A stretch of DNA of 64,000 nucleotides, taken from the NCBI GenBank assembly GCA_025055795.1, contig JANWVV010000004.1, forward strand, positions 1 to 64,000, read 5' to 3'. Positions within the stretch are counted from its first letter, which is position 1, and each line of letters opens with the position of its first letter. Position numbers and translations under genes: made by a program. The notes under the pieces are model-generated. The model did not search any database, was not told the origin of the DNA, and saw only the letters and a list, made by a program, of their open reading frames with translations. This DNA is from Gemmataceae bacterium (GTDB lineage: Bacteria > Planctomycetota > Planctomycetia > Gemmatales > Gemmataceae). Below are positions 30,117 to 32,403 of the stretch, in pieces.

Positions 30117-30848
30117 ATGGTACCGCTGACCGAGCCGGGGTTTGCCCCTGAGGTTCCCGTGCATGGGTATCGGGGCGAGTCTGCCGCATCGGCCCGGCCC
30201 GCGATCCGTCCCGGGGGCCTGACCCTGGCCATCAGCCGGGAAGTAGGGGCCCGCGGTGGTACCATTGCCCGTAAAGTCGGCGAATTGCTCGCCTGGCAGG
30301 TCTTTGACCACGAAAGTATCGATTACCTGTTGCAGCAGGAGACGGCCCGAGCCCAACTGGAAGCGGAACTGCAACCCCAGGCGCAGGAGTGGTTGCAGCA
30401 GCAACGACGGGAATATGCCCATCACCGCTGGTTGGTAGCAGAGACCGGGGCTCTGGCCGATCTATTGCTGGTGATTGCAGCCCGTGGCGAAGCGGTGATC
30501 GTCGGCCGTGCTGCCGGTTTCCTGTTGCCCGCCTGCAGCACGTTACACGTGCGGATCGTCGCCCCGCTGGCCGACCGAGTAGCCTGGATGGCCCAGCTAC
30601 TCCGACTGCCCCACTCCGAAGCGGAACGGGAGGTCTTGGCACGGGAGAGCCGACGGAATCGCTTTCTGGAGAAAGTTGCCGGCGTCCAGGCTAGCGACGT
30701 GCATAACTACGATGCCGTGCTCAATTCTAGCCGGCTGGGCGTGGAAGCCACTGCCCAAATCCTGGGCTGGATGGTCCGCACCCGGGAAGCGACCAAGGCG
30801 GGAGAGCCCTCCGAAACGGGCGACAGCGGGCTGTGGGAACGGTCATGA
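30117..30848 (+). CDS. Cytidylate kinase-like family protein
   Basis: LAISREVGARGGTIARKVGELLAWQVFDHESIDYLLQ; VIVGRAAGFLLP; Cytidylate_kin2 pattern; GAGGAG before ATG. Confidence 0.8.
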   Translation: MVPLTEPGFAPEVPVHGYRGESAASARPAIRPGGLTLAISREVGARGGTIARKVGELLAWQVFDHESIDYLLQQETARAQLEAELQPQAQEWLQQQRREYAHHRWLVAETGALADLLLVIAARGEAVIVGRAAGFLLPACSTLHVRIVAPLADRVAWMAQLLRLPHSEAEREVLARESRRNRFLEKVAGVQASDVHNYDAVLNSSRLGVEATAQILGWMVRTREATKAGEPSETGDSGLWERS

Positions 30849-31603
30849 CGAGCAGCCCCTGGGAGCAGTGGCAGCAGGTGCGAGCCACCGTGCAGCCACA
30901 AGTGGCCGTCGTGCTCGGCTCCGGGTTGGGACACCTCCCCCTCCACTACCGGGAAGCAGCCCGCGTGGCCTATGCCGAAATACCCGAACTGACCCGCGGC
31001 ACGGTCCCCGGCCATACCTCATGCCTGTCCGTCGGCTGGTACCAAGACCGACCCCTCATCCTCGCCTTGGGACGCCTGCACCTGTACGAAGGCCTGAGCC
31101 TGAACCAGGCCACTGCTTTAATACGCCGACTGGCAGAGCAGAAAATTCAACGTATCATTTTAACGAACGCCGCCGGCAGCCTCCACCCATCCTTGACACC
31201 CGGCAGTATCCTATCCATTTGTGCACATTACCAATTGGTAGGAACCGACGGTTGGCGTAGTCTGGCTCGGTGCCAGCCAGTGCGGGAGGTGTATGCCCAG
31301 GATCTTTATGAGCGTCTCCGGACTGTTCCTCAGGGGATTTACGCCGCCGTGACGGGACCATGCTATGAAACACCAGCCGAGGTGCAGGCGCTAGTCCGTT
31401 GCGGCGTCGCCGCCGTCGGTATGTCCACCGCTTGGGAGGCCGAAGAAGCTCAACGACTGGGACTGGAAGTGGTTGCCCTGAGTTGCCTGACTAACTACGC
31501 AACGGGCATTGCCGGCTCCGTTCCCCACCATGCGGAAGTCCTTCAAACGTCCCAACAAGCCCACGGCCGAATGTGGCAACTAATAGCAAGTTTACTAGAA
31601 TAG
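30833..31603 (+). CDS. Purine-nucleoside phosphorylase (PNP/MTAP family)
   Basis: VAVVLGSGLG, GRLHLYEG, ILTNAAGSL, GPCYETPAEV, AVGMSTAWE motifs. Confidence 0.92.
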   Translation: MGTVMTSSPWEQWQQVRATVQPQVAVVLGSGLGHLPLHYREAARVAYAEIPELTRGTVPGHTSCLSVGWYQDRPLILALGRLHLYEGLSLNQATALIRRLAEQKIQRIILTNAAGSLHPSLTPGSILSICAHYQLVGTDGWRSLARCQPVREVYAQDLYERLRTVPQGIYAAVTGPCYETPAEVQALVRCGVAAVGMSTAWEAEEAQRLGLEVVALSCLTNYATGIAGSVPHHAEVLQTSQQAHGRMWQLIASLLE

Positions 31604-31692: not shown

Positions 31693-31786
31693 GTTCATAT
31701 GATTTTATTTTCATATATAATCCTTATCAGATGTACGTTTGCTTTTTCGGGTTGGGTAATTCTGGACAATGAGTGAGGAGGAGTTG

Positions 31787-31814
31787 GTATGATAATTACG
31801 TCCATTTATCATAC
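31787..31814. promoter_or_regulatory. Candidate NikR operator GTATGA-N16-TCATAC (perfect inverted repeat GGTATGATAA/TTATCATACC)
   Basis: Exact match to the E. coli NikR consensus GTATGA-N16-TCATAC, 16 bp upstream of ATG 31831. Confidence 0.65.
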
Positions 31815-31830
31815 CTGAGGTTTTACTCGC

Positions 31831-32403
31831 ATGTTGGGGAGATGGATCCGTTGCGGAGGATGGGTCTTGGCGGGATTGTTACTGCCTGCGGGTCCGGTGC
31901 TGGCTCATGCTCTGGAGGCCGTAGTTCGCGTCATGGCCGACCAGATTGTAATCGAGGCAGGCTACGACGATGAAACGCCCGCAGAACAGGCACGCGTGGT
32001 CGTGTGGGACGAGCAGGGGCAAGTGGTGGCCGAAGGACGGACCGATGCGCGTGGTTTGTGCCGGTTGCCCCGGCCGGCTGCCGGTCGCTACCGCCTGGAA
32101 GTGACCGCAGTGGGTCACCGGACTACCGTCGATTTCGAGGTAGCTGAACAACCGGGCGAACACCGGAGCTGGCGGCCCGATCGCCGCCTGGGACTACTGC
32201 TCGGCCTGGCGGGACTGCTGGCTCTCAGCGGGTTGGCCTGGTGGCACTCGTACCGCCGACGCAGACGCCTCCTGCAGCAGCACTCGTTACAGACAACTAT
32301 GGCCATCCCTCCTGCAAGTTCACCCGAAAAACCTCCCCTCGTGTCGGCACCAGCAATGGAGGGAAAAGTAGCGGAAAAGCCGACTGATCAACCGCACCCA
32401 TGA
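31831..32403 (+). CDS. NikL/CbiL-like periplasmic nickel/cobalt uptake accessory protein (signal peptide, Ig-like domain, C-terminal TM)
   Basis: Signal peptide ending AHALEAVVRV; ARVVVWDEQGQVVAEGRTDARGLCRLPRPAAGRYRLEVTAVGHRTTVDFEV; C-terminal TM LGLLLGLAGLLALSGLAWW; layout resembles NikL/CbiL. Confidence 0.65.
   Translation: MLGRWIRCGGWVLAGLLLPAGPVLAHALEAVVRVMADQIVIEAGYDDETPAEQARVVVWDEQGQVVAEGRTDARGLCRLPRPAAGRYRLEVTAVGHRTTVDFEVAEQPGEHRSWRPDRRLGLLLGLAGLLALSGLAWWHSYRRRRRLLQQHSLQTTMAIPPASSPEKPPLVSAPAMEGKVAEKPTDQPHP

Follow-up and report, generated by a model that had tools for sequence, protein, structure and literature searches.

A predicted NikR operator upstream of a detached nikL-like gene in Gemmataceae

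The role of NikL is still poorly understood, and the locus described here raises the question of whether a lone nikL-like gene of a planctomycete is controlled by nickel through the inverted repeat directly upstream of it. The window is the whole 64,000-nucleotide stretch of Gemmataceae DNA that was analyzed. Its source genome (G000) was studied through searches and selected stretches, and the site and its neighbors were then compared across the family. In the open-access literature, we found nothing on NikR in Planctomycetes or Gemmata, and a 2009 survey of Ni/Co transporters lists none for the three Planctomycetes that it covered (PMC2667541).

The inverted repeat and the nikL-like gene

Positions 31787-31814 read GTATGATAATTACGTCCATTTATCATAC, an exact copy of GTATGA-N16-TCATAC with the 16-nt spacing, and the start ATG of the nikL-like gene at 31831 lies 16 nt downstream of the repeat. 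The first-pass annotation had reported an exact E. coli NikR consensus 16 bp before a gene, and sequence, coordinates, and spacing were all exact when re-read. The core can be written as GTATGAT-N14-ATCATAC, an inverted repeat of the published NikR signal type, which spans 27-28 bp in total. Read directly with its 10-bp perfect arms, the predicted NikR operator is GGTATGATAA-N10-TTATCATACC at 31786..31815, with no strand assigned. With at most one mismatch, GTATGA-N16-TCATAC was matched once in the window and 0.05 times in shuffles, and with at most three mismatches the window was at the level of chance (15 matches vs. 13.0). The exact form occurs as a single copy in the 4.41-Mb genome. At up to two mismatches, the genome gave 47 matches compared with 62 for a reversed-pattern control, and these 47 other candidates were dropped because they were fewer than those of the control. 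Matches with two or three mismatches thus do not exceed chance, and the exact site is the only one that is informative by itself. A motif-free palindrome search returned mostly GC-rich noise.

The gene behind the repeat (31831..32403, + strand; ORF and profile matches) encodes a 190-aa product with a signal peptide, a small CarboxypepD_reg-like domain, and one C-terminal transmembrane segment. The product matched Pfam PF13620 (CarboxypepD_reg) at 3e-7, below cut-off, and NCBIfam NF058648 (NikL family nickel/cobalt ECF transporter subunit) at 3.5e-17 over residues 15-110. Because its 63 bits fall short of the curated cut-off of 100 bits, we call the product NikL-like rather than a confirmed equivalog; two nikR-linked relatives scored 60 and 76 on the same model. 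A PDB search with the protein returned only a stretch of a collagen adhesion protein. As in the NikL family, the product combines an exported domain with a membrane segment, judged by inspection, and is linked to nickel genes in relatives. In six of these (G006, G007, G008, G057, G058, and G070), nikL is located near nikR. Together with the sub-cut-off NF058648 match, this linkage supports the earlier suggestion that the product resembles the NikL/CbiL accessory component.

By direct reading, the predicted signal peptide comprises residues 1-25 and ends in V-L-A (31831..31905, + strand). His26 (31906-31908) is the predicted first mature residue, and A25-H26 is invariant in an 11-sequence alignment. 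A His after A/S/G near the predicted signal-peptide end was found in 76/76 relatives by a script that sought such a His. It is plausible from these sequences that the mature N-terminal His acts as a metal ligand. The predicted transmembrane segment (32191..32253, + strand), hydrophobic in the alignment and assigned by inspection only, follows a conserved WRPD stretch and is itself followed by an Arg-rich stretch. A His directly after the predicted signal peptide was also observed in DUF4198-type proteins beside nikL in G070 and G006, reminiscent of N-terminal His metal sites. The upstream neighbor is a purine nucleoside phosphorylase-like gene (30833..31603, + strand, ATG at 30845; PF01048 1e-29), which lies outside the system. 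The order of purine nucleoside phosphorylase gene and nikL is the same in G075, a genome of the same genus.

NikR and the site in the family

The source genome encodes NikR at C188:8276-8887. The protein, a ribbon-helix-helix regulator with a Ni-binding domain, matched PF08753 at 3e-28, cleared two NCBIfam NikR equivalog cut-offs, and showed full-length similarity to solved NikR structures. The nikR homologue that the first-pass annotation had proposed to look for in the genome is thus present. The same annotation had seen neither nikR nor nikMNQO, which is true of the window and not of the genome, as nikR, cbiM, cbiQ, and cbiO are on other contigs. NikR was found in 59/98 Gemmataceae genomes, and the nickel-ligand pattern is present in all 59 NikRs examined, including that of the source genome. 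These proteins form two subfamilies that differ in the DNA-contact strand, RFSVSL in A and RISISL or RVSISL in B, and the two types were never found together in one of the 98 genomes. A His-rich C-terminal tail with at least four His was observed in 36/43 A-type NikRs (10 His in G070 and G079, for example) and was absent in 16 B-type proteins; the tail of the source-genome NikR is long, with only three His. From their composition, the His-rich tails could possibly act as a nickel buffer.

NikL-like proteins were found in 80/98 genomes of the family. A single-protein NikL search of the contig collection gave no match, and an alignment-based NikL search of it gave 21 named loci, many of them titled Gemmataceae and several being the same contigs. 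The motif GTRTKAY-N13/14-RTMAYAC, with at most one mismatch, was located at the nikL start in 20/76 Gemmataceae genomes, 14 of them perfect. Shuffled upstream regions gave 0.1 and 0.0 matches, and stretches downstream of nikL gave 0/74. This motif was defined in part from the loci at which it was then counted, and two pure forms of it had been published earlier as NikR signals, GTATGAT-N13/14-ATCATAC and GTGTTAC-N13/14-GTAACAC (PMC545781). As this published pair brackets the Gemmataceae motif, the motif fits a NikR signal. Relatives mostly have the 27-bp N13 form with the half-site GTRTKAY, so that the 28-bp form, like that of E. coli, is the variant here. The G075 orthologue, which likewise follows the purine nucleoside phosphorylase gene, has its ATG 15 nt downstream of GTATGAT-N13-ATCACAC. 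The site is therefore present at orthologous loci, as the first-pass annotation had asked to be checked. The E. coli form alone was rejected as a marker in the family, since by ORF reading six other Gemmataceae genomes (L040-L045) have exact GTATGA-N16-TCATAC in or beside unrelated genes. These exact copies indicate that the degenerate N13/14 form, and not the E. coli form, is the good family marker.

Searches of six complete genomes of 4.4-9.8 Mb (G000, G075, G016, G019, G023, and G090) gave one perfect match to the degenerate motif per genome, which was always the nikL site. As these genomes were picked for their known nikL sites, the information lies in the absence of a further perfect match. 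Twelve fixed bases in 4.4 Mb could conceivably arise by chance, and the repeat might then be a mere chance palindrome. However, it stands 16 nt before nikL, recurs at this position both within the genus and in further genera, and is the one perfect degenerate match per genome, so that a chance origin is extremely improbable.

The motif also precedes regulator and transporter genes. It was found before 17/43 A-type nikR genes (0.1 in shuffles) and before 0/16 B-type nikR genes. In G007 and G008, where nikR and nikL are divergent, it occupies the gap separating the two genes, and in G049 it precedes cbiQ of the cbiQO operon. In G070, a DUF4198 (NikK-like) gene is directly followed by nikL; nikR runs divergently from this pair, and the stretch separating them contains the motif in an outward-facing form. 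The source genome's own nikR has a poor NikR-like repeat with two mismatches about 520 nt upstream. In both genomes of the genus, a weak NikR-like repeat (L007:7730-7756 and L093:8301-8327) separates nikR from a divergently oriented prepilin-like gene.

The motif at nikL was present in 19/47 NikR-positive genomes vs. 1/28 NikR-negative genomes (Fisher p=3e-4, in a count that ignores shared ancestry). When the tie between NikR and the site was corrected on the NikL tree, about 3.5 concordant vs. 0.1 discordant independent pairs were obtained, which are too few to reach significance. No such site was found at nikL in 28/47 NikR-positive genomes, and in these the target may have moved or the motif drifted. 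Could a regulator other than NikR use the repeat? NikR binding at this site is a prediction from sequence, and one NikR-negative genome (G062) has a one-mismatch site at nikL. The fit to the published NikR signals, the position before many nikR genes, and the distribution over NikR-positive and NikR-negative genomes all argue for NikR, and we regard another regulator as very unlikely.

Promoter, RNA fold, and proposed control of nikL

A candidate sigma-70-like core promoter, TTGGTA-N17-TATCAT (31784..31812, + strand), overlaps the operator; it agrees with the consensus at 9 of 12 positions in a scan, and its placement is putative. The match is weak, as about one such site is expected in the region by chance. 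An alternative -10 element is TATGAT at 31788-31793, in the left half of the operator. In several B-type genomes, inspection by eye showed TTGCYA some 17 nt upstream of the left half. Since either TATGAT or TTGGTA-N17-TATCAT could be promoter elements, with placement provisional in each case, covering of the promoter is the likely mode of repression.

An inverted repeat in a leader may also act as RNA, and we considered whether it forms an attenuator or terminator hairpin in the nikL transcript. A 71-nt stretch containing the window copy can form a 10-bp stem with a folding energy of -19.4 kcal/mol. However, this fold only modestly surpasses shuffled sequences (z -1.6; 15/200 shuffles fold as well), and a sequence scan found no terminator-like site at the nikL leader. 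Pairing is also lost in relatives, where repeat pair 3 is A opposite C in 12/20 nikL sites, and the motif occurs upstream of nikR and cbiQ as well. The two halves are under different constraint: the left half is GTATGAT in 10/20 sites, and the right half is ATCATAC in the window site alone of the 20. The A-C at pair 3 and the asymmetry of the halves are what one expects of a DNA operator in which one position accepts A or G and the left half is under additional constraint, and not of an RNA stem. A hairpin function is thus highly improbable.

We therefore return to the reading of the repeat as a DNA operator. It is very likely, judging from the sequences, that the 28-bp repeat is the operator of the genome's NikR, which would overlap the putative nikL promoter and repress nikL under ample nickel. 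When cytoplasmic nickel is sufficient, Ni-NikR would bind the repeat and cover the nikL core promoter, and transcription would stop. When nickel is short, NikR would leave the operator and NikL would be made. NikL would then go to the cell envelope, where it may serve a Ni/Co ECF transporter as its accessory periplasmic/membrane component. As the sole perfect NikR site is located before nikL and the arrangement is kept in relatives, nickel probably shuts nikL off.

The scattered transporter and its cargo

The M, Q, and O components are all encoded in the source genome, cbiM on C201 and cbiQ on C190 with cbiO adjoining, so that nikL, nikR, cbiM, and cbiQO are spread over four contigs. In G075, nikL (C5), nikR (C13), and cbiQ (C2) are likewise on separate contigs. 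The M component stayed under the cut-offs of the NCBIfam CbiM models that it matched; the Q component passed the CbiQ cut-off. Two matches to DUF4198 (NikK) were obtained in the source genome, both below cut-off. The presumed partner parts encoded at the cbiM and cbiQO loci have no perfect site there, from which it follows that nickel would control uptake mainly via the accessory NikL. A stronger form of this proposal is that NikR controls nickel entry almost solely via NikL, that CbiM, CbiQ, and CbiO are made regardless, and that NikL directs a Co/Ni ECF transporter, shared by the two metals, toward nickel; we put this forward as a speculation that is rather unlikely to hold in full.

The cargo metal of the importer, nickel or cobalt, is uncertain. 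The nickel enzymes searched for were urease alpha and NiFe-hydrogenase, which gave no match in the source genome or in G075, and Ni-SOD, which gave no match either, with control genomes equally silent. Both genomes of the genus retain NikR, NikL, and the ECF parts alongside the lack of a urease alpha or NiFe-hydrogenase match. It is conceivable that the repeat is a NikR operator and that the importer moves cobalt for B12, NikR shutting a Co/Ni importer against excess nickel. This would agree with the enzyme searches and with the CbiM- and CbiQ-like components, and some NikKMLQO systems have been predicted to be cobalt importers (PMC2667541). On the other side, NikR is kept in 59/98 genomes, the NikL family is mainly tied to nickel systems in the literature, and nickel enzymes also include LarA, CODH, and glyoxalase, beyond the three searched for. 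Cobalt is accordingly possible as the cargo, but less likely than not.

The closest precedents are the NikR regulons of delta-proteobacteria. In Desulfovibrio, NikKMLQO systems have been described in which nikK and nikL stand apart, and a lone nikK there has its own NikR site (PMC545781). As in Desulfovibrio vulgaris, the predicted nickel ECF transporter has accessory genes of the K/L type, with nikK/nikL apart from nikMQO, and the signal is a 27-28-bp inverted repeat with N13/14, which there stands before the lone nikK (PMC545781). In contrast to D. vulgaris, whose nikMQO also has a NikR site, the sole perfect site here is at nikL, M and QO are encoded on separate contigs and lack a perfect site there, and none of the NikK matches passed the cut-off. 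The window copy is identical in sequence and spacing to the E. coli nikABCDE operator GTATGA-N16-TCATAC (PMC7055735). That operator, however, serves a peptide/nickel ABC transporter in another phylum, whereas the transporter here is of the ECF type and relatives mostly have N13 and mixed half-sites. Transporters with a NikL component are also known from Synechocystis, where nickel uptake by NikKLMQO was shown genetically (PMC5904137), and from Haemophilus influenzae NikLMQO, which is under NimR and not NikR (PMC7055735). The NikKLMQO genes of Synechocystis form one cluster (PMC5904137), while those of Gemmataceae are scattered and would be under NikR.

Given the Desulfovibrio and Synechocystis precedents, and as no work on planctomycete NikR was found, the window resembles a new form of a known regulon type. 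The known part is the NikR/NikKMLQO regulon, and the new part would be an operator on a detached accessory gene in a planctomycete family. These results offer a testable nickel regulon for Gemmataceae and point to NikL as the step through which nickel would control a scattered ECF transporter, with the predicted operator staying beside nikL despite the dispersal of the transporter genes.
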